In this document: positions 30,425-47,226 of the stretch, piece by piece
Position numbering within the stretch: position 1 is the stretch's first letter
Layout: every line of letters starts with the position of its first letter
From: Brevibacterium linens ATCC 9172
GTDB lineage: Bacteria > Actinomycetota > Actinomycetes > Actinomycetales > Brevibacteriaceae
Direction of reading: 5' to 3'
NCBI RefSeq assembly: GCF_900169165.1
Contig: NZ_FXYY01000014.1
Span: 1-64,000, forward strand
DNA length: 64,000 bases
Made by a program: the position numbers and the translations under genes
The notes under the pieces: generated by a model
Database searches by the model: none
Told to the model about the DNA's origin: nothing
Seen by the model: the letters and a program-made list of their open reading frames with translations, nothing else

Positions 30425-30430
30425 ACTCCA

Positions 30431-30810: not shown

Positions 30811-30885
30811 TCGGTTCCGTCCGCGAACCGGCTCGACGGATCAGCGAATCGGCAGTGGGCCGACGCTGCCCGTGAACAGAGTCTC

Positions 30886-30925
30886 AGCAATGTGGCACAC
30901 CGAAACGGTGTGCCACATTGCTTTT
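30886..30925 (+). terminator. Rho-independent terminator
   Basis: Arms 30886-30900 and 30908-30922 pair perfectly over 15 bp (AGCAATGTGGCACAC with its complement), with a 7-nt loop and a TTTT tract. It ends the small hypothetical gene and separates it from the RlpA-like gene. Confidence 0.85.
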
Positions 30926-30971
30926 GTAACAGTTCCTTAACTAGAATCTGTGGAGATAACGATCAGATAAC
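30926..30971 (+). promoter_or_regulatory. Two TAAC direct-repeat pairs and -10 box upstream of the RlpA-like gene (MtrA-type)
   Basis: GTAAC at 30926 and TTAAC at 30937 are 11 bp apart; ATAAC at 30956 and ATAAC at 30967 are again 11 bp apart. A TAGAAT -10 box (30942-30947) lies between the pairs. GTAAC-type direct repeats with one-turn spacing resemble sites of MtrA, which controls cell-wall hydrolase genes in actinobacteria. Assignment by analogy. Confidence 0.5.
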
Positions 30972-31048
30972 TTGGAGCCAATCCTCAAGCGCACGGCTGC
31001 GAGAGGTCTTCCCCCTGCATCTCCGAGTTGCCGAGACACTCTGTGACG

Positions 31049-31888
31049 ATGACGAGGAACACGACTGTGGGCAGACACTCAGCTCCGAACACCAAGAAGA
31101 CCGGCTCGATCTTCTCCGCGCTGTCAGCGAAGAAGAAGACCGGACGCCACGCACCCGCCGACCGGCAGAACACCGCCGGGGGAGTGCTGGCAGCGGTCCG
31201 CACCCGCCCGGTGCTCTCCGCGTTCATCGTGCCGACCGCCGCAACGGCAGCCGTCGTCGCCTCGAGCCTCGCAATGGTTCCCAACGACTCTTCCACGAGC
31301 GGCCAGGTCGTGGCCGAAGCGCCGGCCGTCGCCGTCTCCGAGCCGACGCAGGCCACCGACGAATTCCTCGCCAAAGCGAAGAAACAGGCCAAGGAGAAGC
31401 CGGCAGAGGTCACGATCGACACTCATATCGAGACGCCGAGCCCCAAGCCGTCGAAGACTGCCGAGACGAAGGACGAAGGATCGCCCGGTGGCGGAGAGAC
31501 GTCCGGTGGCGGGGAATCCTCTGGCGACGAGGGATCGTCCGGCGGAGCCGCGGACGAGAACGACGGACCGTCGAATTCCGGGAAGTCGACCGGCGTATCG
31601 GGCAGCTGCCCGATGTCCTACTACGGCGGCGGTGACGGATTCGACGGCAGGCAGACTGCCAACGGCGAGATCTTCGATGCCAATAAGCTCACCGCCGCCC
31701 ACAAGACTCTGCCGTTCGGCTCCAAGGTGAAGATCACGAACACCGCCAATGGCAAGTCCGTGACCGTGCGCGTCAACGATCGCGGTCCGTACCACGGCAG
31801 CCGCTGCTTCGACCTGTCGAAGGCCGCCATGGAGGCAGTCGGCGGCGTCGGCGCCGGACAGATCAACGGCAAGTACGAAGTGCAGTGA
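31049..31888 (+). CDS. RlpA-like double-psi beta-barrel cell-wall protein
   Basis: 279 residues: a basic cytoplasmic N-terminus, one hydrophobic segment near 50-65 (LSAFIVPTAATAAVVASSLA), a Ser/Gly/Glu-rich linker (about 110-180), and a C-terminal RlpA/DPBB domain (about 185-279). In that domain CPMSYYGGGDGFDGRQTANGE, TAAHKTLPFGSKVKITN, VRVNDRGPYH and FDLSKAAMEAVG are the hallmarks, including the conserved Asp of NDRGP. Family members are septal or wall-associated, and some are lytic transglycosylases. GTG 31043 and TTG 31028 are alternative starts. TAAC repeats upstream suggest MtrA control. Confidence 0.82.
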   Translation: MTRNTTVGRHSAPNTKKTGSIFSALSAKKKTGRHAPADRQNTAGGVLAAVRTRPVLSAFIVPTAATAAVVASSLAMVPNDSSTSGQVVAEAPAVAVSEPTQATDEFLAKAKKQAKEKPAEVTIDTHIETPSPKPSKTAETKDEGSPGGGETSGGGESSGDEGSSGGAADENDGPSNSGKSTGVSGSCPMSYYGGGDGFDGRQTANGEIFDANKLTAAHKTLPFGSKVKITNTANGKSVTVRVNDRGPYHGSRCFDLSKAAMEAVGGVGAGQINGKYEVQ

Positions 31889-31904
31889 CGCCGTCTGCGG
31901 CAGC

Positions 31905-31933
31905 CGCTGATTGCGGAATCCGCAGGTTCAGCG
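31905..31933 (+). terminator. Possible hairpin after the RlpA-like gene
   Basis: CGCTGA (31905-31910) pairs with TCAGCG (31928-31933), and an inner TGCGG/CCGCA stem sits between them. There is no T-run. The remaining interval to 32115 holds only the AT-richer promoter region of the oxidase gene. Confidence 0.4.
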
Positions 31934-32115
31934 ACGCAAATGCGAGTTTCGAACTTTTCGACCCTATAGGCAAAGGTAATCAGTCGCTGATTCGAGCCTA
32001 GGGCTACGGATTGCTCTGTCGCTGCGAAATTCGTATTCGTCTCTTCGACCTTGGTTTTCGACTGTGGGGTAGCTAACCTGAAGCCACCATCACACAGTCT
32101 GTCGAGGAGTTCCAC

Positions 32116-33474
32116 GTGTCCGAAGTAGCTCGTGACGTCGTCATCATCGGAGCAGGTCCATCGGGCCTGAGCGCGGCCCGTCGGCTGCGGAAGTCCGGAC
32201 GCAGCGTCATCGTCCTCGAAGCTCGTGATCGTGTGGGCGGACGTACCTGGACCGAACACATCGACGGGCAGATGTTCGAACTCGGCGGACAGTGGGTCTC
32301 TCCAGATCAGACCGCGCTGCTGGCTCTCCTCGACGAACTCGGCAAAGAGACCTACCCCCGCTACCGCGACGGCGACAGCGTCTACATCGCACCCGACGGA
32401 GCCCGCACCGTCTACTCGGGCGAGATGTTCCCCGTGGGGGAGTCGACCCAGGCCGAGATGGAACGTCTCATCGGCCTCCTCGACGAGCTCGCCGCCCGAA
32501 TCGGACCGAAGACCCCCTGGGATGCCGAGGACGCTGCCGAACTCGACTCGATCTCCTTCCACCACTGGCTGCGAGAGCAGTCCGAGGACGAACTCGCCTG
32601 CGAGAACATCGGACTGTTCGTCGCCGGCGGCATGCTGACCAAGCCCGCCACCACCTTCTCAACGCTCCAGGCCATCCTCATGGCCGCCTCGGCGGGATCA
32701 TTCTCGAACCTCGTCGACGATCATTTCATCCTCGATCGTCGCGTCGTCGGCGGAATGCAGTCGGTCTCCGTGCAGATGGCCGAGCAACTCGGCGGGGACA
32801 TCGTGCGCTTGCAGCAGCCGGTCCGCCGGATCGAATGGTCGGAGACCGGAGTCCACGTCTCGACCGACGATCTGAGCGTCAGCGCAGACCAGGCGATCGT
32901 CGCCGTTCCGCCGAACCTCTACTCGCGCATCAGCTACGACCCACCTCTGCCTCGGCTCCAGCAGATCTTCCACCAACACCAGTCCATGGGGCTCGTCATC
33001 AAGGTCCATGCCACCTACGACACTCCGTTCTGGCGCGAGGACGGACTGTGCGGAACCGGGTTCGGTGCCTCCCGTCTCGTGCAGGAGGTCTACGACAACA
33101 CGAACCACGGCGAAGAGCAGGGCACCCTCGTCGGGTTCATCTCCGATGTCAACGCCGACGCCATGTGGGCCCTGGACGAGGAGACCCGCCGGGCGACGAT
33201 CCTCGAGGCGCTGGCCGAATTCCTCGGCCCGAAGGCTCTCGACCCGCGCGTGTTCTACCTCTCCGACTTCGGTGCGGAGGAATGGACCCGCGGTGCCTAT
33301 GCGACCAGCTACGACCTCGGCGGTCTGCACCGGTGGGGGCCGTTCCAGAACGACCCGGTCGGACCGATCCACTTCGCCAGCTCCGATATCGCCGCCGAAG
33401 GCTACCAGCACGTCGACGGAGCCGTGCGCATCGGCACCGCCACCGCCGAGAGGATCCTCGGCGAGATCTCCTGA
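32116..33474 (+). CDS. puo: Flavin monoamine oxidase, probable putrescine oxidase
   Basis: 452-residue FAD-dependent amine oxidase. DVVIIGAGPSGLSAARRL (residues 6-23) is the ADP-binding fold and VLEARDRVGGRTWTEH the second FAD motif. FELGGQWVSPDQ and the C-terminal HVDGAVRIGTATAERIL complete the flavin site. Overall similarity and length resemble putrescine oxidases of Micrococcus and Rhodococcus, which turn putrescine into 4-aminobutanal, ammonia and H2O2. The GTG start follows GAGGAG. The APC permease starts 2 nt after the stop, so substrate uptake and oxidation are coupled. Another amine as substrate cannot be excluded. Confidence 0.8.
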   Translation: MSEVARDVVIIGAGPSGLSAARRLRKSGRSVIVLEARDRVGGRTWTEHIDGQMFELGGQWVSPDQTALLALLDELGKETYPRYRDGDSVYIAPDGARTVYSGEMFPVGESTQAEMERLIGLLDELAARIGPKTPWDAEDAAELDSISFHHWLREQSEDELACENIGLFVAGGMLTKPATTFSTLQAILMAASAGSFSNLVDDHFILDRRVVGGMQSVSVQMAEQLGGDIVRLQQPVRRIEWSETGVHVSTDDLSVSADQAIVAVPPNLYSRISYDPPLPRLQQIFHQHQSMGLVIKVHATYDTPFWREDGLCGTGFGASRLVQEVYDNTNHGEEQGTLVGFISDVNADAMWALDEETRRATILEALAEFLGPKALDPRVFYLSDFGAEEWTRGAYATSYDLGGLHRWGPFQNDPVGPIHFASSDIAAEGYQHVDGAVRIGTATAERILGEIS

Positions 33475-33476
33475 CC

Positions 33477-35000
33477 ATGAGCAGCACACAGCCGTCACCG
33501 TCGACGAACACGAGCGGACTGAGCGCCAAGGGACTCTCCGCCGGCAAGATCGGAGCCATCGGGGGAGCCGTCATCGGCATCTCCTGCATCGCCCCGGCCT
33601 ACACGCTGACCTCCGGATTGGGCCCGACGATCTCCGAAGTCGGGGTGCACACCCCGGCCGTGCTGCTCATCGGCTTCGTGCCGATGCTCCTGGTCGTCTT
33701 CGGCTACCGGGAACTGAACACGGCGATGCCGGACTCGGGAACCACCTTCACCTGGGCGACCAGAGCATTCGGGCCCTGGCTCGGATGGATGGGCGGCTGG
33801 GGACTCGTCGCTGCCACCGTCCTCGTGCTGTCCAATCTCGCGGCCGTGGCCGTCGACTTCCTCTTCCTCCTCCTGTCGCAGGTGTTCTCCGATCCGTCCA
33901 TCGCCGAACTCACACGGGTTCTGTGGATCAACATCCCCGTCACGATCATTCTCACCGCCGCCGCAGCCTGGGTGTCGTATCGGGGAGTCGAAGCCACGGA
34001 GAAGCTGCAGGTGTGGCTGGTCGCCTTCCAAGTCCTGGCGCTGGGATGGTTCGTCATCGCCGCGATCGTGCAGGTGGCGAACGGCACCGCCTTCGACCCG
34101 ACCCCGGTCTCACTCGATTGGTTCAACCCGCTGTCGGCCGGCGACTTCTCCACCGTCGCGGCAGCGGTGTCACTGTCGATCTTCCTCTTCTGGGGCTGGG
34201 ACACGGTGATCACGATGAACGAGGAGGCGAAGGATCCGGAGAAGACCCCGGGCCGGGCCGCCATGCTCACGATCATCGCGATCGTCATCATCTACATCGC
34301 CTGCACGATCGCGGTCATCTCGTTCGCCGGCATCGGCACCGAGGGGCTCGGGGCAGGCAATCCGGACAACCAGGAATCGATCTTCGCCTCACTCGCCGGC
34401 CCTGTCATGGGTCCCTTCGCGGTTCTCGTATCCATTGCGGTGCTCTCCTCGTCTCTGTCGTCGCTGCAGGCGACGATGGTCTCGCCCTCTCGGACGATCC
34501 TGGCGATGGGCCACTACGGAGCGCTGCCGGAGAAGTACGGCCGCGTCTCCCCGCGGTACAAATCGCCGTCCGTGGCCACCGTCACCTCGGCGGGAGCGGC
34601 GATCATCTTCTACGTCGTCATGCGTCTGCTGTCGGAGAACGCCCTGTGGGACACGATCACCGCTCTGGGACTCATGGTCTGCTTCTACTACGGCATCACG
34701 GGTCTGGCCTGCATCTGGTATTTCCGCCGCAGCCTGTTCGCCTCGACCCGCACGTTCTTCTTCCGGTTCCTGTTCCCGCTCATCGGCGGAGTGACCCTGC
34801 TGGTCATCTTCGTCACCACCGCGATCGACTCCCTCGATCCCGACTACGGATCGGGGTCGTCCGTCTTCGGCATCGGACTCGTCTTCGTCCTCGGCATCGG
34901 AGTGCTGGCCCTGGGCGTGGTCATCATGATCATCCAATCTCTCCGCCATCCCGACTTCTTCCGCGGACGCACCCTGAAACAGGGAGTCGACGAGGGGTGA
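33477..35000 (+). CDS. APC family amino acid/polyamine permease
   Basis: 507-residue secondary transporter of the amino acid-polyamine-organocation superfamily with about 12 transmembrane segments. IGAIGGAVIGISCIAPAYTLTS is the TM1 helix break region, FWGWDTVITMNEEAKDPEKTPG the TM6/loop 6-7 signature, and SLQATMVSPSRTILAMGHYGALP the TM8 region, all typical of APC carriers. Placement 2 nt after the amine oxidase gene points to putrescine or a related amine as substrate (inference). Its stop overlaps the GTG of the AraC-type gene by 4 nt. Confidence 0.88.
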   Translation: MSSTQPSPSTNTSGLSAKGLSAGKIGAIGGAVIGISCIAPAYTLTSGLGPTISEVGVHTPAVLLIGFVPMLLVVFGYRELNTAMPDSGTTFTWATRAFGPWLGWMGGWGLVAATVLVLSNLAAVAVDFLFLLLSQVFSDPSIAELTRVLWINIPVTIILTAAAAWVSYRGVEATEKLQVWLVAFQVLALGWFVIAAIVQVANGTAFDPTPVSLDWFNPLSAGDFSTVAAAVSLSIFLFWGWDTVITMNEEAKDPEKTPGRAAMLTIIAIVIIYIACTIAVISFAGIGTEGLGAGNPDNQESIFASLAGPVMGPFAVLVSIAVLSSSLSSLQATMVSPSRTILAMGHYGALPEKYGRVSPRYKSPSVATVTSAGAAIIFYVVMRLLSENALWDTITALGLMVCFYYGITGLACIWYFRRSLFASTRTFFFRFLFPLIGGVTLLVIFVTTAIDSLDPDYGSGSSVFGIGLVFVLGIGVLALGVVIMIIQSLRHPDFFRGRTLKQGVDEG

Positions 35001-35404
35001 ATGAGCAACTGGTGGCTCTGCGCCGAGTCCGGGACCGCATCGACCGCGAGTTCGACCAGCCCTTGAGTGTGGAGGCCCTGGCCGCAGGCGTGCACATGTC
35101 CGCCGGGCACCTCAGCCGTCAGTTCAGAGCGGCCTTCGGCGAATCGCCGTATTCGTATCTCATGACGCGCAGGATCGAACGCGCCATGGCCCTCATCCGT
35201 CGCGGTGATCTCACGATCACCGAGATCTGCTTCACCGTCGGCTTCTCCTCCCTGGGCACCTTCAGCACCCGCTTCAGTGAACTCGTCGGACTCTCACCGA
35301 CGCGCTACCGCGACGGTGTCGCCGCAGGCGAGCACCGGCTTCCGACGATCGTGGTGAAGAATGCCCTGCGACCGGTCAGGAATCGAGAAGTCCCACCTGA
35401 CTGA
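34997..35404 (+). CDS. Short AraC family transcriptional regulator
   Basis: 135 residues that consist almost only of the AraC/XylS DNA-binding domain: first helix-turn-helix SVEALAAGVHMSAGHLSRQFRAAFGESP, second ITEICFTVGFSSLGTFSTRFSELVGLSPTRYR. There is no ligand-binding domain, so any effector response must come from elsewhere. The GTG overlaps the permease stop (GTGA), making it part of the oxidase-permease transcript. Short AraC proteins are also often found beside VOC genes, as here, so it may regulate the downstream VOC/UvrA-like pair. Confidence 0.87.
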   Translation: MNEQLVALRRVRDRIDREFDQPLSVEALAAGVHMSAGHLSRQFRAAFGESPYSYLMTRRIERAMALIRRGDLTITEICFTVGFSSLGTFSTRFSELVGLSPTRYRDGVAAGEHRLPTIVVKNALRPVRNREVPPD

Positions 35405-35410
35405 GCAGTC

Positions 35411-35416
35411 TACGAT
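35411..35416 (+). promoter_or_regulatory. Leaderless-type -10 box (TACGAT) for the VOC gene
   Basis: TACGAT begins 7 nt after the AraC stop and is followed by 7 nt and ATG 35424. It gives the VOC/UvrA-like pair a promoter separate from the oxidase operon. Confidence 0.45.
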
Positions 35417-35423
35417 TGCTGAC

Positions 35424-35834
35424 ATGGACATCTCGATCAACGCCAGCTTCCTGCAGCACATCGATGCGGACGAATCCCTGACCTTCTACCGTGACATCCT
35501 CGGCTTCGAGCTGCGCCTCGACGTCGGTGCCGGACGCATGCGCTGGCTGACGGTGGGACCGGTCGGCCAGCCCGACACATCGATCGTGCTCACCCCGCCC
35601 GTGACCGACCCGACGATCAGCGACACCGAACGGGAGACCATCGAAGGTCTCATCGCCAAGGGCAGCTATGCCGCGATCGTGCTGGCGAGCCCGAACGTCG
35701 ATGAGGCCTTCGCCGAGGTGGAGGCCAAGGGTGGCGATATCGTGCAGGAACCGATGGACCAGCCCTATGGTCTGCGCGACTGTGCCCTGCGGGATCCCGC
35801 CGGAAACATGATCCGCATCCAGCAGAGAGGCTGA
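35424..35834 (+). CDS. VOC superfamily (glyoxalase/bleomycin-resistance-like) protein
   Basis: 136-residue vicinal oxygen chelate protein with two beta-alpha-beta-beta-beta units. MDISINASFLQHIDADESLTFYRDILGFELRLDV (seen in parts) is the first unit, and FAEVEAKGGDIVQEPMDQPYGLRDCALRDPAGNMIRIQQ the second. The SFLQH and PxGLR/DPAGN/IRI positions suit a metal-site or ligand-binding VOC protein, but glyoxalase activity cannot be claimed. It ends 5 nt before the UvrA-like GTG. Such pairs may protect against a genotoxic compound (inference). Confidence 0.85.
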   Translation: MDISINASFLQHIDADESLTFYRDILGFELRLDVGAGRMRWLTVGPVGQPDTSIVLTPPVTDPTISDTERETIEGLIAKGSYAAIVLASPNVDEAFAEVEAKGGDIVQEPMDQPYGLRDCALRDPAGNMIRIQQRG

Positions 35835-35839
35835 GACCT

Positions 35840-38207
35840 GTGCACACCGCAGACAGCCATGACCTCATCCGCGTCAGCGGAGCCCGGGAGAACAATCTCA
35901 AGAACTTAAGCGTCGAGATCCCCAAACGTCGCCTGACGGTCTTCACCGGCGTTTCCGGTTCCGGCAAGAGTTCGCTGGTCTTCCACACCATCGCCGCCGA
36001 GTCCCAGCGGATGATCAATGAGACCTATTCCGCGTTCGTCCAAGGCTTCATGCCTGCGATGGCCCGACCCGAAGTCGATGTCCTCGAAGGACTGACGACG
36101 GCCATCCTCGTCGATCAGGAGCGGATCGGAGCGAACCCGCGATCCACCGTGGGTACGGTCTCGGACATCAATGCGAAGCTGCGCACCCTCTTCGCTCGTC
36201 TGGCAGAACCGAACCTCGGGTCGACCAACGCCTACTCCTTCAACGTGGCCACGCTGAGCGGGAAAGGCGCGGTGAGTATCGACAAGGGCGAGGGCGAGCA
36301 GGTCGAACGCAGGTCCTTCTCCGTCAACGGCGGAATGTGCCCGCAATGCGAGGGAATGGGCACCGCGACGGACATCTCCATCGCCGAGGTGGTCGATGAG
36401 TCGAAATCCTTGAACGACGGAGCCATCACGGTCCCCGGGTACAAACCCGGCGGTTGGTCCGTGCGCATGTTCTCCGAATCCGGCTACTTCGACCCGGACA
36501 AACCCATCGCCGACTTCGATGAGAAGGAGCGACACTACCTTCTCTACGCCGAAGGCGAGAAGGTCAGGATCAACGGCACGAACATCACCTTCGACGGGCT
36601 GATCCCGCGGATCCAACGGTCGTTCCTGTCCAAGGATCGTGACTCGATGCAGAAGCACATCCGGGAATTCGTGAACCGGGCCGTCGTCTTCACCACCTGT
36701 CCCGACTGCGAGGGCACTCGTCTCAATGCGGCCGCGCGGTCCTCCCTGATCGCCGGTCGGTCCATCGCCGATGTGTGTGCCCTGCAGATCTCGGACATCA
36801 CGAAATGGCTCGATCAGATCACGCCGGGGGCCGCCTCGGCGCTGCTGAAGTCACTGCGTGCGGACGTGCGCGCCTTCAACGACATCGGCCTCGGATATCT
36901 GTCCCTGGACCGATCGGCGGGATCGCTGTCCGGGGGAGAGGCGCAGCGGATCAAACTGGTCCGCCACCTGGGCTCGTCGCTCACGGACGTCACCTATGTC
37001 TTCGACGAACCGACGATCGGCCTGCATCCGCACGACATCCGAGCGATGAACGACCTGCTGCTGGCGCTGCGGGACAAAGGCAACACGGTCCTCGTCGTCG
37101 AACACAAGCCCGAGACGATCCTCATCGCCGACCACATCGTCGACCTCGGTCCCGGCGCGGGCAGTACCGGGGGAGAGGTCACCTTCACCGGCACCGTCGA
37201 CGGTCTCCGGGAATCGGATACTCTCACCGGTCGCCACCTCGGATACCGCACTCAAGGACACGGTGCGGGAGTCGGCGGGGGCACTGGAGATCCGGGGTGC
37301 CGGATCGCACAATCTGCGCGACGTCGATGTCGATGTGCCCCTCGGCGTGCTCACCGTCGTCACCGGAGTCGCCGGTTCGGGCAAGAGCAGCCTCATCGAA
37401 GGGTCCCTGCGGGGGCGCGATGGAGTCGTGATGATCGATCAGGCGCCGATCAAGGGATCCCGGCGCAGCAACCCGGCCACGTATACGGGGATGCTCGAGC
37501 CCATCCGGAAGGCGTTCGCGAAGGCCAATGGGGTCAGACCCGCCCTGTTCAGCGCGAATTCCGAAGGCGCGTGCCCGGTGTGCAACGGCGCCGGGATCAT
37601 CTATTCGGATATGGCGCTCATGGGCGGTGTGTCGGCACCGTGCGACGAGTGTGAGGGCAAGGGGTTCCAAGCCGAGGTGCTCGAATTCACCTTGGGCGGA
37701 CTGAATATCCGTGAGGTCCTCGACCTGCCGGTGGATTCGGCTATCGCGCATTTCGGTGCGGGGGAGTCGCGCATTCCGGCGGTCGTGAAGATTCTGAAGA
37801 TCCTCGCCGAGGTGCGACTCGGCTATGTCAGTCTCGGCCAGCCGCTGACGACGCTGTCCGGGGGAGAGCGTCAGAGACTGAAACTGGCGGTGCACTTGTC
37901 GGCGAAGGTCGCCGAGGCGGCGCAGGTGATCATCCTCGATGAACCGACGACCGGACTGCACCTGGCAGATGTCGAGAACCTGCTGCGTCTGCTCGACGGA
38001 CTTGTCGACTCAGGTCGGACCGTCATCGTCATCGAACACCACCAGGCCGTGATGGCTCATGCCGATCACATCATCGACCTCGGACCCGGTGCCGGACACG
38101 ACGGAGGTTCCATCGTGTTCGAAGGCAGCCCAGCCGACCTGGTCGCAGGAGAGAAGACGAACGGTTCGCTGACCGCCGAACATCTGGCCGCATATGTGAA
38201 TGCCTGA
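35840..38207 (+). pseudogene. UvrA-like ABC ATPase, frameshifted near 37,246
   Basis: Two reading frames together encode one UvrA-paralogue of about 788 residues (the short drug-resistance type, cf. DrrC). Frame A from GTG 35840 has Walker A GVSGSGKSS, zinc Cys pairs CPQCEG and CPDCEG, LSGGEAQRIKLVRHLG and FDEPTIGLHP. It loses homology after GRHLGY near 37,246 but stays open to 37654. Frame B (from about 37,247, last GTG 37263, to 38207) continues ALKDTVRESAGALEIRGAG, GVAGSGKSSL, CPVCNG, CDECEG, LSGGERQRLKL and LDEPTTGLH. A one-base change at GGATACCGCACTC restores a single frame. It is either a real inactivation or a sequencing error. Confidence 0.85.
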
Positions 38208-38313
38208 CCGGCCTGACCGGGGGAGCCGCTGCTTTTCACACTTCGCTCAGAGAGCGCGGAGGCGATTCGGATGCTGATTTCACGGTCTCGGGTTCAAATG
38301 CGGCAGTTGATTC

Positions 38314-38350: not shown

Positions 38351-38386
38351 AGAGCCGAAATGCAGTCGTACTTTGGAGAAGACACA

Positions 38387-38839
38387 GTGAACCTCTACAG
38401 CACAAGCCTCCGCAAGGCCGCCCTGCTCGTCGGCGCCGGCGCTGTCGCAGCCGCCGGGCTGACCGGAATGAGCGCAACGCAGCCGGCACAGGCATCTGAG
38501 AAGGGCGTCTGGGACAAGGTCGCCGAATGCGAATCCGGCGGTGACTGGCACATCAACACCGGAAACGGATACTACGGCGGACTGCAGTTCTCCAAGCAGA
38601 CCTGGAATGCCTTCGGCGGTTCGGGCACTGCGGACGAGCACAGCAAGGAGTGGCAGATCCACATCGCTCAGAAGGTGCTCGAGGAACAGGGTCCGGGCGC
38701 ATGGCCGGTCTGCGGCGAGAAGGCCGGACTGACGAAGTCCAACGGTGCCGCCGATGACGGCGACGGGTCCGGCGACGACGGCGGTTCGAGCGACAGCGGC
38801 AAGGTCGGACTCGGCGGAAATGTCATCGTCGGCAGCTGA
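38387..38839 (+). CDS. Resuscitation-promoting factor (Rpf)-like transglycosylase
   Basis: 150-residue secreted protein. A signal peptide (KAALLVGAGAVAAAGLTG, cleaved near QPAQA/SEKG about residue 37) precedes an Rpf lysozyme-like domain of about 75 residues. VWDKVAECESGGDWHINTGN contains the catalytic Glu (AECESGG), and YYGGLQFSKQTWNAFGG and WPVCGEKAG with the second Cys complete it. The tail is Gly/Asp/Ser-rich. Rpf proteins cleave peptidoglycan and promote regrowth of dormant cells. GTG 38387 is 7 nt after GGAGA, so ATG 38360 is not preferred. A strong hairpin follows at 38903. Confidence 0.9.
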   Translation: MNLYSTSLRKAALLVGAGAVAAAGLTGMSATQPAQASEKGVWDKVAECESGGDWHINTGNGYYGGLQFSKQTWNAFGGSGTADEHSKEWQIHIAQKVLEEQGPGAWPVCGEKAGLTKSNGAADDGDGSGDDGGSSDSGKVGLGGNVIVGS

Positions 38840-38902: not shown

Positions 38903-38950
38903 CAGAAAATGCCCCTGAGTGACCCACGCGTCGCTCACGGGCATTTTCTG
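38903..38950 (+). terminator. Terminator hairpin after the Rpf gene, next to dif
   Basis: Arms 38903-38923 and 38930-38950 pair over 21 positions with one mismatch and one G-T pair; they begin CAGAAAATGCCC and end GGGCATTTTCTG. It lies 64 nt after the Rpf stop and 23 bp before dif, and may shield dif from transcription. Confidence 0.75.
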
Positions 38951-38972: not shown

Positions 38973-39000
38973 AACGCCGATAATATACATTATGTTAAGT
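38973..39000 (+). other. dif: dif site (XerCD chromosome dimer resolution site)
   Basis: 28 bp that match about 25 of 28 positions of the actinobacterial dif consensus as I recall it. The XerC-side core CCGATAAT (38977-38984), a short centre, and the XerD-side core ACATTATGT (38987-38995) followed by TAAGT are intact. The departures are AA for TT at the left end and T for C at 38996. It is strikingly AT-rich for this genome. The GGGGGAG polarity reverses between 38,225 and 40,398, exactly around it, which is independent support. XerC/D and FtsK genes are not in the window. Confidence 0.88.
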
Positions 39001-39090: not shown

Positions 39091-39399
39091 ATGGCGACGA
39101 GGCAGCCGGCGATGTGACCGACCGGTGAAGGCGTTGGCGAGGTTCTCGACCGTGCCCGCGGTCCCAGGCGCGCCGAGGCCGATCGCCTGTGCGAGATCTT
39201 CGCAGGGATCTCCGGCGAAGTGCCTGTGGTGTGGGCTTCGCGCATCATCGGGTTCGGTGAGGTCGAGCATCGCTATGAGTCTGGACATGGCGGCACAGTG
39301 CCGGTGCTCGCCTACTCCCCTGTTGCGCGCCAACACGATCTATCTCACCGCGACTATGAAGAGCGCGGGCCGAATGGGGCGGATGCTAGTCTGTACTGA
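39091..39399 (+). pseudogene. Decayed DUF1801 domain gene
   Basis: An ATG at 39091 with an excellent AGGAGG site begins MATRQPAM and stops at once. A different frame then reads EADRLCEIFAGISGEVPVVW and ASRIIGFGEVEHRYESGHGG, then TVPVLAYSPVAR, which is the DUF1801 (YdhG-like) core. A third frame carries the expected NTIYLT strand. At least two frameshifts are therefore needed, and the C-terminal third is missing. It lies 90 bp from dif. Relic status is inferred from the broken frames; remaining identity to the family is clear. Confidence 0.7.
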
Positions 39400-39405
39400 A
39401 CAGTA
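39387..39405 (+). promoter_or_regulatory. -10 box and palindromic operator before the DUF4442 gene
   Basis: A TAGTCT box (39387-39392) is followed at once by TACTGAACAGTA (39394-39405), a 5-bp inverted repeat around AA. A repressor bound there would cover the transcription start. It is of the size seen for TetR-type operators; no regulator gene is adjacent. Confidence 0.4.
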
Positions 39406-39431
39406 ACTCAGCTCACAGCAGAGGTGCACCC

Positions 39432-39987: not shown

Positions 39988-40503
39988 TCACCAACCCGAC
40001 AGCAGCAGCACCCGCTGAGCGGCCGAGGCGCCCTTGTCGAGCGGGCGCGGCGGCCTGTATCCGCCCTCGGCACCGAGGGCGATGATGAGATCGCCGAGTT
40101 CCTCCGCGATGAACGCGGCCAGGCTCTCGTCGACCGGCCAATCGTGACCGGTGCCGCGTGAGAGATCCGCGGCATGGAGGGCTAGCTCGAGGATGCGCAT
40201 CTGCACCAGCTGCGCGCCGGGAATGCTCCCGATCCGATGTGCGACCGGCACCTGCAGATCGCACTCCTCAGCGAGCGTTCTGAATGCTGTCTCGTGAGCC
40301 CAGAATGATTCGAGCCTGTCATTGCCGCGGTGATCGACTCCCCTGGTGGCTTCGACCTTCGCAGTGCTCGCCTGCCCCAGCAGCAGCGTGCAGCGGACTC
40401 CCCCGCCGATCAGGTGATTGATGAGCTCGGCATTCGTCCACTCTCCGGCACCGCTCGTTCGATTCAGATCGGAAGCACGGACTCGCCGCAGCGTCTCGGA
40501 CAA
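39988..40503 (-). CDS. Mycothiol-dependent maleylpyruvate isomerase (MDMPI)-like protein
   Basis: About 171 residues of the DinB/MDMPI four-helix superfamily. RTSGAGEWTNAELINHLIGG is the first metal-site helix (His), and LVQMRILELALHAADLSRGTGHDWPVDE the second (E-x-x-x-H-x-x-D). Such proteins use mycothiol or bind it, which fits the presence of mshC. The start is uncertain: TTG 40501-40503 with a GGAAG site gives a helix 1 that looks about ten residues short, and the open frame to 40638 has no homology. A N-terminally damaged gene is possible. It diverges from the DUF5058 operon across two palindromes. Confidence 0.65.
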   Translation of the reverse strand: MSETLRRVRASDLNRTSGAGEWTNAELINHLIGGGVRCTLLLGQASTAKVEATRGVDHRGNDRLESFWAHETAFRTLAEECDLQVPVAHRIGSIPGAQLVQMRILELALHAADLSRGTGHDWPVDESLAAFIAEELGDLIIALGAEGGYRPPRPLDKGASAAQRVLLLSGW

Positions 40504-40529
40504 CGAGATCTTCCGGCCAAACGGTGGCC

Positions 40530-40545
40530 CTGACCGTTCGGTCAG
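40530..40545. promoter_or_regulatory. Palindrome CTGACCG-TT-CGGTCAG (TetR-type operator)
   Basis: A perfect 7-bp inverted repeat around TT. The inner TGACCGNNCGGTCA equals the site reported for the TetR-family repressor FadR of Thermus. It lies 27 bp upstream of the MDMPI-like start and 91 bp upstream of the DUF5058 gene. No TetR gene is in the vicinity. Confidence 0.5.
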
Positions 40546-40572
40546 TATATGTTGTCCCTGCGTCCCGCGTGA

Positions 40573-40582
40573 TGGTATACCA
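40573..40582. promoter_or_regulatory. Palindrome TGGTATACCA (GntR-type operator) before the DUF5058 operon
   Basis: A perfect 10-bp palindrome of the type bound by FCD-class GntR repressors. TTGTCC at 40552 lies 18 nt before TATACC at 40576, which could be -35 and -10, so the palindrome would overlap the -10 box of the operon. Confidence 0.45.
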
Positions 40583-40636
40583 ATGTGACCTGCCACTCGG
40601 GCCCCTGCTGCTCGACGATGAAGTGAGGAGCTGACC

Positions 40637-41383
40637 ATGACAGTGGCCAGCGGTTCGGCCGACTACATCGGCCTCGCAAATGCACCGATTCTCTGGATAC
40701 TCGCGTTGGCGGTGATGGCTGTCGTCGTCGTCCAATCGCTCATCTACATGACCGCCGTGAAGAAGAACGCCGAGTCGGCGGGAATGAGCCAACAGGAGGT
40801 CAGGTCGGCCTTCCGCGCCGGTGGTGTCGCCGCAATCGGACCGTCACTGTCGGTGGTCCTCGTCGCCATCGCCCTGCTGCCGCTCTTCGGCACTCCCCCG
40901 GTCATCGTCAGGGTCGGGCTCATCGGCTCCGCCGCCACCGAGGTGGCCTCTGCGTCGCTGGCTGCAGGCACCATGGGCGCCAACCTCGGTGATGAGACCT
41001 TCACCCGCGGGGTCTTCATCGTGGCTCTCATGGCGATGAGCCTCTCGGGAGCCGGCTGGATGATCTCCACTCTCATCCTCACCCCGATCTTCAAGCGCAG
41101 CTCCCACAAACTCGAGAAGGTCAATCCGGCGCTCATGTCGATCATCCCGGGCGCGGCACTGCTCGCGGCCTTCGCGGCCCTGACCTTCCGTGAGCTGCCG
41201 AAATCGCCGGCGCACGTCATCGCCGTCATCGTCTCGGCAGTCGTGATGAGCATCTGCCTGCTGCTGGCCAAGACACTCAAACAGAACTGGCTGAAGGAAT
41301 GGGGACTGGGATTCTCCCTGCTCATCGGCCTCGTCGCCGCGTATTTCGCCCACTATGCCGGTCTCGGACTGCCCGAAGCCTGA
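40637..41383 (+). CDS. DUF5058 family membrane protein
   Basis: 248-residue integral membrane protein with about six or seven hydrophobic helices (roughly 14-38, 68-90, 94-112, 124-146, 172-190, 194-213, 222-241). The conserved-looking loop segments are GSAATEVASASLAAGTMGANLGDE and SGAGWMISTLILTPIFKRSS. It fits the uncharacterised DUF5058 family. There is no ATPase or binding protein nearby, so if it is a transporter it would be secondary. Strong GAGGAG site. The partner membrane gene starts 9 nt after the stop with its own GAGGAG. Confidence 0.75.
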   Translation: MTVASGSADYIGLANAPILWILALAVMAVVVVQSLIYMTAVKKNAESAGMSQQEVRSAFRAGGVAAIGPSLSVVLVAIALLPLFGTPPVIVRVGLIGSAATEVASASLAAGTMGANLGDETFTRGVFIVALMAMSLSGAGWMISTLILTPIFKRSSHKLEKVNPALMSIIPGAALLAAFAALTFRELPKSPAHVIAVIVSAVVMSICLLLAKTLKQNWLKEWGLGFSLLIGLVAAYFAHYAGLGLPEA

Positions 41384-41392
41384 GGAGAGAAC

Positions 41393-42130
41393 ATGTCATC
41401 GATCATCACATCACCCTCGCACGCGGCGTTCGAGCGCACCACCAGCCGGTGGGGCTCGATCACGCTGTTCATCGGATTCCTCATCGCCACCTCGGTGCCG
41501 TTCTATCTGATCTTCGTCGCAGACGCGAACATCGACTTCGGTGAGATCCTCACGGGGTTCCTCGCCGTGTTCGCCGTCTACGGCGTCTTCTACATCGTCG
41601 AACCTCTCACCTACTTCCCGATCCTCGGACCCGCCGGAATGTACCAGGCCTTCATGATCGGCAACGTCTCAAACAAGCTGCTGCCCTCGGCCATCGTCGC
41701 TCAGGACGCGATCGGGGCGAAGCCCGGCACCCGCAAGGGCGAATATGCGGCGACGATGGCCATCTGCGGGGCGGCGATCATCCACGTCACCTCGATGGTC
41801 ATCTTCGTCGGCATCCTCGGCACGTGGCTCGTCACCCTCATCCCCGAGTCGGCCACCCTCGTCGCGAAGCTCTACATCCTCCCGGCCATCCTCGGCGGTG
41901 TCACCGTCCAGCTCATCGCGTCCCTCAAGCAGCTCAAGTCGACGCTCATCGCCCTCGGTATGGCGGCTCTGGTCATCCTCGTCCTCGTCCGACTGGTTCC
42001 CGTGCTCGCGCCCGGCGACGTCGCGATCGTCGTGTTCCTGACCATCCTCATCACCTGGTTCACCCGCAACAAATCGGTCACGGACAAGAGGTCGGGCGGC
42101 GACGGCACCGATACCGTCGGCATCAACTGA
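41393..42130 (+). CDS. Uncharacterised membrane protein, partner of DUF5058
   Basis: 245 residues, about six or seven hydrophobic helices (starting near 22, 48, 63, 110, 145, 165, 188), and a hydrophilic tail. Loop segments YFPILGPAGMYQAFMIGNVSNKLLPSA and AQDAIGAKPGTRKGEYAAT are the most distinctive; I recognise no named transporter family. Tight spacing (9 nt) after the DUF5058 gene suggests the two make a heteromeric carrier or channel (inference). A small hairpin at 42151-42167 separates them from the hydrolase genes. Confidence 0.72.
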   Translation: MSSIITSPSHAAFERTTSRWGSITLFIGFLIATSVPFYLIFVADANIDFGEILTGFLAVFAVYGVFYIVEPLTYFPILGPAGMYQAFMIGNVSNKLLPSAIVAQDAIGAKPGTRKGEYAATMAICGAAIIHVTSMVIFVGILGTWLVTLIPESATLVAKLYILPAILGGVTVQLIASLKQLKSTLIALGMAALVILVLVRLVPVLAPGDVAIVVFLTILITWFTRNKSVTDKRSGGDGTDTVGIN

Positions 42131-42150
42131 CGACACCATGCCCCTGTCGC

Positions 42151-42167
42151 TCAGTCTCCGAGACTGA
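42151..42167 (+). terminator. Small intercistronic hairpin (possible attenuator)
   Basis: TCAGTCT and AGACTGA are perfect 7-bp arms around CCG, 20 nt after the membrane gene stop. No T-run follows, so partial termination or RNA processing inside the operon is more likely than full termination. Confidence 0.4.
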
Positions 42168-42224
42168 CCCCCGCATTCGAGAATTCCTGCCAAGATGGCA
42201 CCACACCACTGCCGAAAGGACATC

Positions 42225-43466
42225 ATGTCGCTCAAGCCCGCTCTCCGCGCGTCGATCAGCGCCGATCTCGACCAGACGATTGCCGACTACAAACACTTCC
42301 ACCGCACTCCCGAGCTGTCGATGCAGGAGACGAACACCGCCGCCGAGATCGCCTCCCGCCTCCACGCCCTCGGACTGACCACCCGCACCTTCGGCGGAAC
42401 CGGCGTCGTCGCCGTGATCGACAACGGCGACGGGCCCGTCATCGGCTACCGCGCCGACATCGACGGCCTGCCGATCAGCGAGGACACCGGACTCGACTAC
42501 GCCTCCGCCGCAGAGGGCACTCTGCCCGACGGGGAGACCACGAAGGTCATGCACGGCTGCGGCCACGACACGCACATCACCGTCGGGCTCTACCTCGCCA
42601 AGCACCTCGTCACACACAAGGACCTGTGGTCGGGCACGGTCGTCATGATCTTCCAGCCGGGGGAAGAGACCGGCCAAGGTGCGCGGGCCATGCTCGACGA
42701 CGGACTCTGGGATGAGATCGTGCGCCCCGAAGTCATCTTCGGTCAGCATGTGTGGCCCGGAACGGCCGGCCACATCTACGCCAGCAGCGGCACCGCCATG
42801 GCGATGTCCGACTGCCTGCGCGTGACCGTCAAGGGCAAACAGGCGCACGGATCCCAGCCGGAGAATGCGATCGACCCGATCGTCCTCGGCGCCTATATGA
42901 TCACCCGGCTCCAGTCGGTCGTGTCCCGTGAGATCTCCGGCCGCGACATGTCCGTCGTCACCGTCGGCACGTTCCACGGCGGGCTCAAGGAGAACATCAT
43001 CCCGGACTCCGCCGAGTTCAAACTCAATATCCGCACCTTCACCGAGGAGGTCCGCGCAGTCGTCCTCGACCGGGTCCGCCGGATCGTTCTCGCCGAGGCG
43101 CAGGCTTCCGGCGCCCCGGAACCGGAGATCGAGGAGATGTATCGGTTCCCGCGCTGCTTCAACGACCCCGACGAAACCGAGTCGTTCCTCACTCACGTCG
43201 GAGCCGAGCTCGGTGCCGAGCAGGTCCACCTGACCGAGCCTGCCACCGGCAGCGAGGATGTCGGAGCGTTCGGAGATGACATCGGTGTGCCGTACGTCTA
43301 CTGGTTCTTCGGCGGCTACTCCCCTGCGAAATTCGAAGGCGGACAGACCCCGGCCGGCAACCACTCCCCGTTCTTCGCTCCTGACGATGTCGAAACCACG
43401 CTCGAGACGGGCATCCGAGCCGCGCTGTCAGCAGTGCTGAGCAAGGTCGGAAAGGACCGCGCATGA
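42225..43466 (+). CDS. M20 family amidohydrolase
   Basis: 413-residue zinc-type hydrolase of peptidase family M20D, whose members release amino acids from N-acyl or other conjugates. GYRADIDGLPISED (metal/acid region near 75), MHGCGHDTHITVG (Cys-His metal motif near 107), FQPGEETGQGARAM (catalytic Glu near 142), GQHVWP, the dimerisation-domain His in KQAHGSQPENAID and the C-terminal SEDVGAF and GNHSPFF are all present. ATG 42225 follows GAAAGGA and begins MSLKPALRAS; the in-frame ATG 42195 lacks a site. It overlaps the amidase start by 4 nt (ATGA). Confidence 0.88.
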   Translation: MSLKPALRASISADLDQTIADYKHFHRTPELSMQETNTAAEIASRLHALGLTTRTFGGTGVVAVIDNGDGPVIGYRADIDGLPISEDTGLDYASAAEGTLPDGETTKVMHGCGHDTHITVGLYLAKHLVTHKDLWSGTVVMIFQPGEETGQGARAMLDDGLWDEIVRPEVIFGQHVWPGTAGHIYASSGTAMAMSDCLRVTVKGKQAHGSQPENAIDPIVLGAYMITRLQSVVSREISGRDMSVVTVGTFHGGLKENIIPDSAEFKLNIRTFTEEVRAVVLDRVRRIVLAEAQASGAPEPEIEEMYRFPRCFNDPDETESFLTHVGAELGAEQVHLTEPATGSEDVGAFGDDIGVPYVYWFFGGYSPAKFEGGQTPAGNHSPFFAPDDVETTLETGIRAALSAVLSKVGKDRA

Positions 43467-44896
43467 GTGAGGAGATGCTGTGGTGGTCGACCCGTGAACT
43501 GGCCGCCCGGATCGCCGCCAAAGAGGTCTCCGCCCGTGAAGCACTGCAGGTCCACCTCGACCGCATCGACGCAGTCAACCCCGTCCTCAATGCCGTCGTC
43601 ACCCGTGACGACGAGGCCGCGTTCGCCCAGGCCGAGGCGGCGGACTCAGCGACCGCTCGCGGTGAGAGCTTCGGGCCCCTGCACGGGGTGCCGATGACGC
43701 ACAAGGACACTCACGACACTGCGGGAATGCGCACGACTTGGGGATCGCCGCTCATGGCCGATCGGGTTCCCGAATCGGATGCGCTCATCATCGCCCGACT
43801 CAAAGCCGCCGGGATCACGACGACGGGCAAGACGAATGTCCCCGAGTTCGCCGCCGGTTCGCACACCTTCAACGAGGTGTTCGGCACGACGGTGAACCCC
43901 TACGACCGAACGAAATCGGCATCGGGGTCCTCCGGCGGAGTGGGGGCGGTGCTCGCGGCCGGGATCCAAGCCTCCGGGGACGGATCGGACATGGGCGGAT
44001 CACTGCGTTCGCCCGCATCGTTCAACAACGTCGTCGGGCTGCGACCGAGCAACGGCCGCATCCCGCACACTGCCCCGGGCAACCCCTATGCGTGGCTTGG
44101 GCAGAGCGGGTTCATGGCACGCACGGTCTCGGATGTCGCACTGCTGATGTCGGTGGCCTCAGGGCCGCACCCCTCGGCGCCGGCATCGATCCTGGAATCG
44201 GGCAGAGTCTTCGACCTCCCGGAATTCGCTCGTGCCGCCGACCACTCCCCCGACCTCACCGGTCTTCGGGTCGGATTCAGCCCCGACCTGGACGGACTGC
44301 TGCCTGTCGAGGCCGAGGTGAAGGACATCGTCGCCTCCACGGCTCAGGTGTTCAGCGGTCTCGGCGCGCAGGTGGACGCGGAGATTCCGAATCTCACGGA
44401 CGCCGATGAGGTATTCAATGTGCGCCGTGCCCTCGACTTCGTCGGGTCCTGGGGCGGGCTGTATGAAGCGCACCCGGAGCACATCAAGGAATCGGTCAGG
44501 TGGAATATCCGCATGGGCCTCGATCTCACCGGCGCCGAGGTGGTTGCGGCCGAATCCGCACGCACCCGCCTCCACGGTGAGATCGACCGATACTTCGCCG
44601 GACACGATGTCCTCGTGCTCACTACCTGCCAGGTCCTGCCGTTCGATGCCGACATCGAATATCCGACGCAGATCAACGGTGTGCAGTTGGAGAACTACCT
44701 CGATTGGATGCGGGCCCTGTGCCTGATCTCGGCGACCGGGTGCCCCGCGATCTCGGTGCCGGCAGGATTCTCGGCCTCCGGCCTGCCGGTGGGTGTGCAG
44801 ATCGTGGCGAAACCGGGCGCTGACGTCGAACTGCTCCGAGTCGCTCATGCCTTCGAATCGGCGACCGGTCACCACCGTCGGCGGCCGGAGCTCTGA
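43463..44896 (+). CDS. Amidase (amidase-signature family)
   Basis: 477-residue serine hydrolase with the Ser-cisSer-Lys triad. Lys is in PMTHKDTHDTAG (near 79), the cis-Ser lies in SASGSSGGVGAVLAAG (near 155), and the nucleophile Ser is in SDMGGSLRSPASF (near 180). The usual GGSIR is GGSLR here. It cleaves carboxamides; the substrate is not predictable, and it could also be a GatA-like protein, but gatB/gatC are absent. ATG overlaps the M20 stop, so both hydrolases are coupled and likely act on the same imported compound class. Confidence 0.88.
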   Translation: MSEEMLWWSTRELAARIAAKEVSAREALQVHLDRIDAVNPVLNAVVTRDDEAAFAQAEAADSATARGESFGPLHGVPMTHKDTHDTAGMRTTWGSPLMADRVPESDALIIARLKAAGITTTGKTNVPEFAAGSHTFNEVFGTTVNPYDRTKSASGSSGGVGAVLAAGIQASGDGSDMGGSLRSPASFNNVVGLRPSNGRIPHTAPGNPYAWLGQSGFMARTVSDVALLMSVASGPHPSAPASILESGRVFDLPEFARAADHSPDLTGLRVGFSPDLDGLLPVEAEVKDIVASTAQVFSGLGAQVDAEIPNLTDADEVFNVRRALDFVGSWGGLYEAHPEHIKESVRWNIRMGLDLTGAEVVAAESARTRLHGEIDRYFAGHDVLVLTTCQVLPFDADIEYPTQINGVQLENYLDWMRALCLISATGCPAISVPAGFSASGLPVGVQIVAKPGADVELLRVAHAFESATGHHRRRPEL

Positions 44897-44948
44897 GCGG
44901 AACGTCGCGCCGGAGTCGGCGCAGCGCGGGACGGACGGGGACAGGTAT

Positions 44949-44971
44949 GGCAAACCTGGGCAGAGTTTGCC
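44949..44971. promoter_or_regulatory. Inverted repeat upstream of ferritin
   Basis: GGCAAAC (44949-44955) and GTTTGCC (44965-44971) are 7-bp arms separated by 9 nt, about 95 bp before the ferritin start. It does not match the DtxR/IdeR iron box. It may be an operator of an unknown regulator or the end of the amidase operon. Confidence 0.35.
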
Positions 44972-45065
44972 GAGCCTTTCCACACTGGAACGGTTCTAGA
45001 AAAGGTGTCAGGATATTCTCTAAGCAGGCGGAATGGATCCGCCTCGAACAGCAAAGGAGTAACAG

Positions 45066-45581
45066 ATGCACCTGAGCCCCGCTATGCAGAAGGTCCTCAA
45101 CGAGCAGGTCACCCTCGAACTCGAAGCCTCGTTGGTCTACCTCCAGCTCTCCATCCAGCTCGACGATCAGGATCTGCCCGGAATGACGCGCTGGATGCGC
45201 GCCCAGTCCGAAGAAGAGCAGGTGCACGCCGCGAAGTTCACCCAGCACTGCCTCGACCGCGGATTCGCCCCTCAGATCGGTGATATCGCCGCTCCGAAGG
45301 TCTCCGGCTCGCAGCCGATCGACTTCTTCAAGGCCGCTCTGGCGCACGAGGAGAAGGTCTCGGAATCCATCCGCAATCTCTACCGCACCGCCCAGGACGA
45401 AGCCGACCTCGACGTGCTGCCGCTGCTCCACTGGTTCATCGACGAGCAGGTCGAGGAGGAGTCGAGCATCTCGGAGATCGTCGGTCGCCTCGAGCGTGTC
45501 GGCACCGACGGTGCCGGTGTCCTGCGCATCGATTCCGAGCTCGGCTCACGCCACCCCGATATCACCGCCGACGGCGAGTGA
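45066..45581 (+). CDS. ftnA: Ferritin
   Basis: 171-residue non-haem ferritin that stores iron in a 24-subunit shell. NEQVTLELEASLVYLQLS holds the first ferroxidase Glu, EEEQVHAAKF the E-x-x-H pair, and HWFIDEQVEEESSISEIV the third Glu segment, all in a four-helix bundle with a short fifth helix. No haem-binding Met of bacterioferritin is evident. AAAGGAG precedes the ATG with good spacing. It stands as a single gene; no iron box is visible. Confidence 0.93.
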   Translation: MHLSPAMQKVLNEQVTLELEASLVYLQLSIQLDDQDLPGMTRWMRAQSEEEQVHAAKFTQHCLDRGFAPQIGDIAAPKVSGSQPIDFFKAALAHEEKVSESIRNLYRTAQDEADLDVLPLLHWFIDEQVEEESSISEIVGRLERVGTDGAGVLRIDSELGSRHPDITADGE

Positions 45582-45730
45582 TATCTGCAGACCGACCACT
45601 TGAGGCTCAGCGCTCATCTCGAGTCGCGTGAGTCGAGGGTGGACTCGAATCGAGTACTCAGCGGCCGATCCCAGTGCGGGGTCGGCCGCTGTGCTGTCGG
45701 CCCCTGTGACGTCGGCACCGGACTCCGTAC

Positions 45731-46663
45731 TCAGCCGAGCACCGACTGGCCGATGAGGAGTACGACCGGCAGAGTGACGAGCATGATGACGGTCTGTCCG
45801 GCGATGAGTGCGGCCATGAGCTTCGCGTCTCCCCCGAGCTGCCTCGCCATGACGTAGCCCGAGCTCGCCGTCGCAATCGACTGGAAGACCAATCCGACCA
45901 GTGCAGGCACCGTCGGGACGCCGAAGAGGGCCAGGGCTGCCAGCGACAGGCCCGGCAGCAGAAGCAGCTTGATCGCCGTGGAGGCGATGATGGCCCGGGT
46001 ATGGGAGCGCAGCGAGAATGTCTGCAAGCCGGCACCGACGCACAGCAGACCGATGGGCAGCGAGGCCGACGCCAGGGGATCGAGAACCGTGGACGCCACG
46101 TCGGGCAGGCCCAGCCCGCTGACGTTGGCAGCTGCTCCGGCGACGCAGCCGAGCACGAGAGGATTCGTCACGATCGCCCTCAGCAGCGCGAACAGCGAGC
46201 TCGGCCCGGTGCGGAGGAACTCGAAACCGAGACTCGAGACGACGTTGACCGTGGGGACGAGGATCGCTGCGACGATCGCGGCAACGGCGCTGCCCTCGGA
46301 GCCGAACAGGCTGCCCGCCAAGGACAGCCCGATATAGGTGTTGAAGCGGATGCCTCCCTGCAGAACAGAGGTGAAGGCGGGAAGATCACGAGCGATGACC
46401 CGACGGGTCACAATGATGCCCACGGAGACGACCGCGGTGGGAACGACGAGCGCCGCCGCCAACCGCACGAGCGGGACATGGGCCACATCCACCTCGGCGA
46501 CGGAGGTGAAGAGCAGCACCGGAAGCAGACAGTAGTACGCGAGCTTCTCCGCGCCCGACCAGAACTCGGGACTCCGAAAACCCGGCAGTCTCTTCAGCAC
46601 CAGGCCGAAGGCGATGAGCACCGTGACGGGAAGGAGGGCGAGGAGTATGGGAACCAGGCTCAC
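45731..46663 (-). CDS. AEC family transporter (auxin efflux carrier-like)
   Basis: 310-residue membrane carrier with about ten hydrophobic helices in two five-helix repeats. It begins MSLVPILLALLPVTVLIAFG, and family features are GGIRFNTYIGLSLAG, TNPLVLGCVAGAAANVSGLGLP and LPIGLLCVGAGLQ (end of repeat). Members export or import small organic acids; malonate and malate carriers belong here. The substrate cannot be inferred because neither neighbour is metabolic. The start is 80 bp from the divergent hsp20 gene, with the HspR site in between. Confidence 0.88.
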   Translation of the reverse strand: MSLVPILLALLPVTVLIAFGLVLKRLPGFRSPEFWSGAEKLAYYCLLPVLLFTSVAEVDVAHVPLVRLAAALVVPTAVVSVGIIVTRRVIARDLPAFTSVLQGGIRFNTYIGLSLAGSLFGSEGSAVAAIVAAILVPTVNVVSSLGFEFLRTGPSSLFALLRAIVTNPLVLGCVAGAAANVSGLGLPDVASTVLDPLASASLPIGLLCVGAGLQTFSLRSHTRAIIASTAIKLLLLPGLSLAALALFGVPTVPALVGLVFQSIATASSGYVMARQLGGDAKLMAALIAGQTVIMLVTLPVVLLIGQSVLG

Positions 46664-46700
46664 AGACTGAGAATTTCATGAGTTCGGAATCAATTCAAAG

Positions 46701-46719
46701 TTGAGTGTGTTTGACTCAA
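46701..46719. promoter_or_regulatory. HAIR element (HspR operator) upstream of hsp20
   Basis: TTGAGT (46701-46706), 7 nt, ACTCAA (46714-46719) matches the HspR-associated inverted repeat CTTGAGT-N7-ACTCAAG at every inner position. Only the outermost bases differ (G at 46700, T at 46720). It lies 27 bp before the hsp20 ATG. Confidence 0.85.
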
Positions 46720-46745
46720 TGTAGGACCCGAACGAAAGGAAGCAC

Positions 46746-47216
46746 ATGGCTACACGTTTCGACCCCATCCGCGACCTCGACCGATTCTTCTCCGAGGTCA
46801 CCCGCACCCCGAATGCCACCACTCTGCCGATGGACCTCTACCGTGACGGCGAAGTCTTCATCGCCCGCATCGACATGCCCGGAGTCGATCCGAGCAGCAT
46901 CGACGTCGACGTCGAAGACCGCACGCTCACGGTCCGCGCCCGCCGCGAATCCGAGGTCGCCGACAAGGACGTGAAGTGGCTGACCAGGGAACGCACCAAC
47001 GGCACCTACGCCCGCCAGCTCACGCTCGGCAACCGGGTGGCCCTGGATCGCATCCGCGCCGACTACAGCGACGGCGTCCTCACACTGACGATCCCCGTCG
47101 CCGAGGAGGCCCGTCCGCGGAAGATCTCCGTTTCGCACGCTTCCGGACAGACCGCCCCCGAAGTGGTCGAATCGTCCTCGGCGGACGAACCCCGCTCCCC
47201 CGGCGCCGGCAGCTGA
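46746..47216 (+). CDS. Small heat shock protein Hsp20
   Basis: 156-residue alpha-crystallin-type holdase. The N-terminus is RFDPIRDLDRFFSEV, the alpha-crystallin domain spans about 28-120 (LPMDLYRDGEVFIARIDMPGVDPSSIDVDVEDRTLTVRA, read in pieces), and ADYSDGVLTLTIPVAEEARPRKISV contains the G-V-L motif and the C-terminal anchor. It holds unfolding proteins under heat or oxidative stress. The HspR operator immediately upstream predicts repression by HspR. It ends at a strong terminator. Confidence 0.93.
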   Translation: MATRFDPIRDLDRFFSEVTRTPNATTLPMDLYRDGEVFIARIDMPGVDPSSIDVDVEDRTLTVRARRESEVADKDVKWLTRERTNGTYARQLTLGNRVALDRIRADYSDGVLTLTIPVAEEARPRKISVSHASGQTAPEVVESSSADEPRSPGAGS

Positions 47217-47226
47217 CTCCGTGAGC

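Follow-up and report, generated by a model that had tools for sequence, protein, structure and literature searches.

Does the 28-bp element at positions 38973-39000 mark the terminus of the Brevibacterium linens chromosome? The element lies on the + strand of the 64,000-nucleotide stretch analysed here (the window), which is part of contig C25 of a draft genome of 3,959,351 bases (3.96 Mb) in 80 contigs. A sequence-only reading had called it a dif site and had located the chromosome terminus in the window. The sequence is present at these coordinates and in this orientation, and the identification was upheld: the element occurs in a single copy, is found genus-wide, lies near the antipode of dnaA and sits inside a polarity switch of the heptamer GGGGGAG. 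We conclude that it is almost certainly the chromosomal dif site, and very probably the ordinary dif site of this bacterium.

Sequence and setting of the element

The element and its neighbours are as follows.

38973..39000, + strand: dif site, 28 bp, AACGCCGATAATATACATTATGTTAAGT, composed of AACGCCGATAA (XerC-side arm), TATACA (centre) and TTATGTTAAGT (XerD-side arm)
38990..39000, + strand: XerD-side arm TTATGTTAAGT, from an alignment of 29 loci on the element
38360..38839, + strand: gene with a transglycosylase-like domain (PF06737, 3.2e-30), left neighbour
38904..38949, + strand: hairpin, probable terminator of the transglycosylase-domain gene, flanking dif and outside it, identified by eye
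39091..39408, + strand: remnant of a DUF1801-domain gene, right neighbour, with an early stop and its 3' part missing

The division of the 28-mer into arms, and the names XerC and XerD given to them, are our assumption by analogy with E. coli dif. Compared with the predicted dif of Frankia alni, the sole published actinobacterial reference used for comparison, the element is identical at 24 of 28 positions (PMC3025954); the earlier figure of about 25 of 28, which referred to an actinobacterial consensus, gives way to a slightly lower one against a published sequence. According to that paper, no actinobacterial dif had been experimentally confirmed as of 2011. The centre carries AT or CT in Brevibacterium versus GC in F. 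alni, and the XerD end reads mostly TTAAGT or TTAACT versus TCAAGT (PMC3025954). The XerD arm is nearly identical to the gamma-proteobacterial consensus (PMC5993296).

When 29 loci were aligned on the element, conservation was strong from 38976 to 39001 and ended there; the 28-mer itself was less conserved at its first three positions (19, 21 and 22 of the 29 loci). Nine of the 11 columns of the XerD-side arm were invariant and two were variable (T/C/A and G/C). As a pattern was used to find the loci, the fixed columns of this alignment are in part selected.

The sequence-only reading had placed the element between a terminator and a decayed gene, which agrees with what we found on its two sides: the hairpin, with an outer stem of 11 bp, on the left, and the broken DUF1801-type gene on the right. 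A terminator scan did not have the hairpin at 38904-38949 among its results. The transglycosylase-like domain of the left neighbour is presumably of the Rpf type. The DUF1801 gene is open in relative L015, and PF08818 matches the L015 copy and not the remnant. The description of the surroundings as an AT-rich pocket holds for the element itself (15% GC at 38980-38999), and the pocket is barely wider than that, with 60% GC in the 20-base windows on either side. Further left, at 35840-38207, a UvrA-like ATPase gene is frameshifted into two overlapping frames; it is a 790-aa open frame in G018, a genome 97.9% identical to our own over 3 kb around dif.

The site is single copy and present throughout Brevibacterium

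A 24-base dif pattern, with up to three mismatches allowed, matched the window only at 38973-39000 and gave 0 matches across 100 dinucleotide-preserving shuffles of the window. The search of the whole chromosome for the consensus that the sequence-only reading had proposed likewise returned one copy: a 26-base pattern matched our genome once, with none elsewhere at three or fewer mismatches, and its reversed control gave 0.

All 57 Brevibacterium genomes searched, our own included, carry dif at two or fewer mismatches, 55 of them in a single copy; against the 24-base pattern, none of the 57 departs by more than 1 mismatch. In G012, which is a MAG according to the named records, the two dif places are the ends of two contigs that overlap by 273 bp at 95% identity and so represent one locus. 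G056 carries, at G056:C1:4129129 (L107, G056:C1:4119000-4138999), a second dif-like site whose centre is altered (CCGATAATAAACCTTATGTTAAGT). Order-wide, 272 of 297 sampled genomes matched a 22-base version of dif at two or fewer mismatches, a figure that becomes 245 of 270 outside the genus, and the same search gave no match in 25 genomes of the order sample. NCBI places Brevibacterium in the Micrococcales; the order in our genome collection is that of GTDB and may be wider.

dif lies near the antipode of dnaA

With our own assembly in 80 draft contigs, the circular position of dif had to be inferred from relatives. The distance from dif to dnaA could be computed for nine of 14 relatives, the other five having only rounded genome lengths. 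In all nine, which are complete and of exact length, it is 0.476-0.539 of the circle, placing dif 1.8-14 degrees off the dnaA antipode. The orientation of dif relative to dnaA is the same in 12 of the 14 relatives and opposite in G020 and G029, in both of which the motif polarity described below still converges on dif. An inversion around either the terminus or the origin would be expected to leave this combination of opposite orientation and retained convergence.

Cumulative GC skew had also been proposed as a check, and it showed no clear extremum at dif. The arm means of G018 are -0.002 and -0.018, differing by 0.016 (p = 0.22, 40 stretches of 20 kb), and over the 410 contiguous kb that surround dif the cumulative minimum is 81 kb away from it. 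With so weak a signal in G018 we rejected GC skew as a test of position; it is uninformative here, and neither supports nor opposes dif. Kono et al. excluded low-skew genomes from their comparison of dif with skew (PMC3025954). AT skew does differ between the G018 arms (means +0.024 and -0.018, p = 0.002), with its extremum at +147 kb from dif in the same 410 kb.

GGGGGAG switches polarity at dif

The window contains 26 copies of GGGGGAG, all in the permissive orientation.

742..38225, + strand: 16 GGGGGAG, dif-directed, left of dif, at 742, 4461, 11330, 17406, 21522, 26595, 27835, 28454, 31178, 32436, 33561, 36932, 37169, 37760, 37860 and 38219
40398..63023, - strand: 10 GGGGGAG, dif-directed, right of dif, at 40398, 40893, 44245, 45829, 47195, 51738, 55321, 57663, 59616 and 63017

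The two arms of G018 were compared for k-mers 4-8 bases long in 36 of 40 stretches, the four nearest dif being excluded. Away from dif, the top polar heptamer was GGGGGAG, with 139 leading-sense versus 8 lagging-sense sites (160 versus 8 over all 40 stretches). The observed z-scores were 11.88 for GGGGGA and 8.76 for CGGGGGAG, and the highest z among 10 stretch permutations, run for hexamers and octamers and not for heptamers, was 5.0 and 4.3, respectively. Several other k-mers were weakly polar. In the held-out 409,895 bases around the G018 dif, GGGGGAG occurs 62+/0- on the left and 0+/55- on the right, that is, 117 of 117 sites are permissive, and the best switch falls in the gap from -758 to +1423, with dif inside. 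The corresponding counts in the window are 16+/0- and 0+/10-, and the switch occupies the 2.2-kb interval between 38219 and 40398, which again contains dif. Of the heptamers that occur 20 times or more in the window and have a positive score, 826 in all, GGGGGAG alone switches perfectly.

Our genome has 846 GGGGGAG sites. Among the first 100 of these, contig C25 outside the window adds 10, all -, and contigs C20, C21, C22 and C23 carry 12+/0-, 2+/15-, 7+/0- and 2+/23-, the near one-sign pattern expected if each contig sits on one arm. Elsewhere in the genus, dif lies within the switch interval in G020 (53 of 54 sites permissive within 100 kb), G029 (88 of 92, 100 kb), G056 (53 of 53, 80 kb) and G024 (32 of 35, 80 kb). 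Six genomes from other families, one per family and picked for long contigs rather than at random, all show a switch of GGGGGAG at dif, with 209 of 213 sites permissive within 40 kb (38/39, 25/25, 14/14, 40/41, 70/72 and 22/22 per genome). GGGGGAG was the top-scoring heptamer in five of the six and fell outside the top five in G309.

At 106 of the 117 sites around the G018 dif the heptamer is preceded by C or T. From dif outwards, permissive sites number 4.4, 5.1, 3.7 and 2.8 per 20 kb in four distance classes of G018; density is lowest near the origin and shows no steady rise toward dif. Shorter motifs were dropped for their exceptions on both sides of dif (GGGGGA, 86+/9- left and 14+/79- right; GGGGAG, 103+/32- left and 28+/107- right), and the heptamer was retained because it gave the cleanest ratio away from dif. 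We also rejected as the local polar motif both the E. coli KOPS and the B. subtilis SRS, neither of which switches cleanly at dif: GGGNAGGG showed no switch at the G018 dif (left +17/-16, right +7/-18), and GAGAAGGG, which we take to be the SRS motif, showed no clean one.

The claim that the window holds the terminus is therefore borne out for the segregation terminus, meaning the point at which FtsK-type signposts converge; this is what the evidence marks, and not the exact meeting point of the replication forks.

Other readings of the site and of its polarity

Integrated plasmids and phages that use host Xer proteins exist, and the element might be a dif-like attachment site left by one of them instead of the chromosomal dif. 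Kono et al. mention dif-like sequences of phages (PMC3025954). The type may occur in this genus: in G056 a region of about 40 kb has a low GC content (53-61% versus 62-66% to its left), the altered second site is situated about 2 kb into it, and a mobile element that used Xer may have left this site behind. GGGGGAG shows polarity without a switch at that site; over the 180 kb examined the next best dif-like place has 3 mismatches in its arms, so the ends of such an element cannot be drawn in G056. For the element at 38973-39000 an attachment site is very improbable, given a dif in 57 of 57 genus genomes, no second copy in our own, and a chromosome polarity switch that contains the element and contradicts this origin there. 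Coincidental resemblance to the dif consensus has a vanishingly small probability, in view of the shuffled windows (0 matches in 100), the same 57 genomes and the location in the polarity switch. The chromosomal dif remains our reading of the site.

The polarity might have a different cause, in that the bias of GGGGGAG could result from mutation on the leading strand, or from codon use and the direction of genes; dif would still be dif, placed at a switch of replication strand. Coding sequence around dif is indeed co-directional with replication (63% in the window, 69% in G018), and the other weakly polar k-mers and the difference in AT skew between the arms fit such a cause. Against it, the G018 sites in the 410 kb around dif comprise 66 in sense, 32 in antisense and 19 in intergenic positions, and those of the window 13, 7 and 6, all of them permissive, with genes called by a simple codon-position rule. 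Moreover, the reversed heptamer GAGGGGG is non-polar in G018 (left +6/-6, right +7/-11) and 2.7 times rarer than GGGGGAG in our own genome (313 versus 846), and the near-zero GC skew of G018 means that G and C show a weak strand bias. We regard a mere by-product of strand bias as unlikely, and favour a role for GGGGGAG in orienting FtsK.

Recombinases, FtsK and a proposed pathway

Elsewhere in the genome are encoded XerD (340.2 bits versus an NCBIfam cut-off of 329.6) and an FtsK gamma domain (85.3 versus a Pfam cut-off of 30.6). The best family for the XerC candidate is XerC, with a score of 290.9 over the 349-aa stretch scanned versus a cut-off of 335.15; its two domains are separated by an extra stretch, which is perhaps why it falls below. 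Further tyrosine recombinases in the genome score lower, and with these present the assignment of the XerD partner rests on score.

The pathway we propose builds on what was observed: a site in single copy, its location opposite dnaA in relatives, motifs that converge on it, and the genes for the proteins. Dimers of sister chromosomes would arise from an odd number of crossovers. At the division septum, FtsK would then load on the polar GGGGGAG sites and pump the DNA of both arms toward dif, until it reached XerC and XerD bound on the two 11-bp arms, where its gamma domain would activate XerD. Exchange of strands across the 6-bp centre would yield two monomers before cell division. We infer binding, activation and recombination at dif, and likewise the reading of GGGGGAG by FtsK, from the known E. 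coli pathway.

Relation to known systems

The element shares with the actinobacterial dif sites of Kono et al. (2011) a length of 28 bp, its arms, occurrence once per chromosome and a genome with XerC-like, XerD and FtsK genes (PMC3025954). It resembles the E. coli dif/XerCD/FtsK/KOPS system in its 11-6-11 layout and in polar motifs that converge on dif (PMC5357621), and differs in that GGGGGAG switches here and GGGNAGGG does not.

For Corynebacterium, the architecture imparting sequences G(A/T/C)GGGGGA and (T/C)GGGGGAG have served to locate dif (PMC2830990, PMC3219685). Our motif shares with these the GGGGGAG core and the preference for C or T before it, so that the dif site and the signpost core are both of known kinds. 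The Corynebacterium motifs come from a genus belonging to another order than Brevibacterium, whereas the sites counted here are from Brevibacterium and from six other families in its order, each represented by one genome. GGGGGAG is probably an FtsK-orienting motif, because it forms the core of the corynebacterial sequences. We lean, with some reserve, toward a broader proposal, that GGGGGAG (usually [C/T]GGGGGAG) may be the FtsK-orienting sequence of the whole order containing Brevibacterium and of corynebacteria, distinct from the E. coli GGGNAGGG, and selected nearly without exception near dif even where GC skew has almost gone. Among the papers listed from one open library, none was found to report a Brevibacterium dif or terminus or to name GGGGGAG as an FtsK motif, and those listed with GGGGGA in connection with dif or the leading strand all concern Corynebacterium.

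Together, dif and GGGGGAG fix the segregation terminus in a Brevibacterium for which GC skew is unable to do so. They also suggest a test for draft assemblies, in which a contig with one sign of GGGGGAG would be assigned to one arm, and a contig whose sign flips around a dif match to the terminus. For the question of how FtsK of actinobacteria reads direction, GGGGGAG is a clear candidate.

In the named genome collection, 36 stretches contain the exact 24-mer of dif; 27 of these are Brevibacterium records, and Gordonia, Millisia, sphingomonads and others make up the remainder. Among the records that contain the 24-mer are those of Symbiobacterium, Stakelama, Sphingomonadaceae, Endomicrobiellum, KSB3 and Sphingomonas (L159, L161, L166, L170, L171, L173), all of which we take to lie outside the Actinomycetota. 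Two contigs of the viral collection (L217, L218) also contain the exact 24-base dif core.
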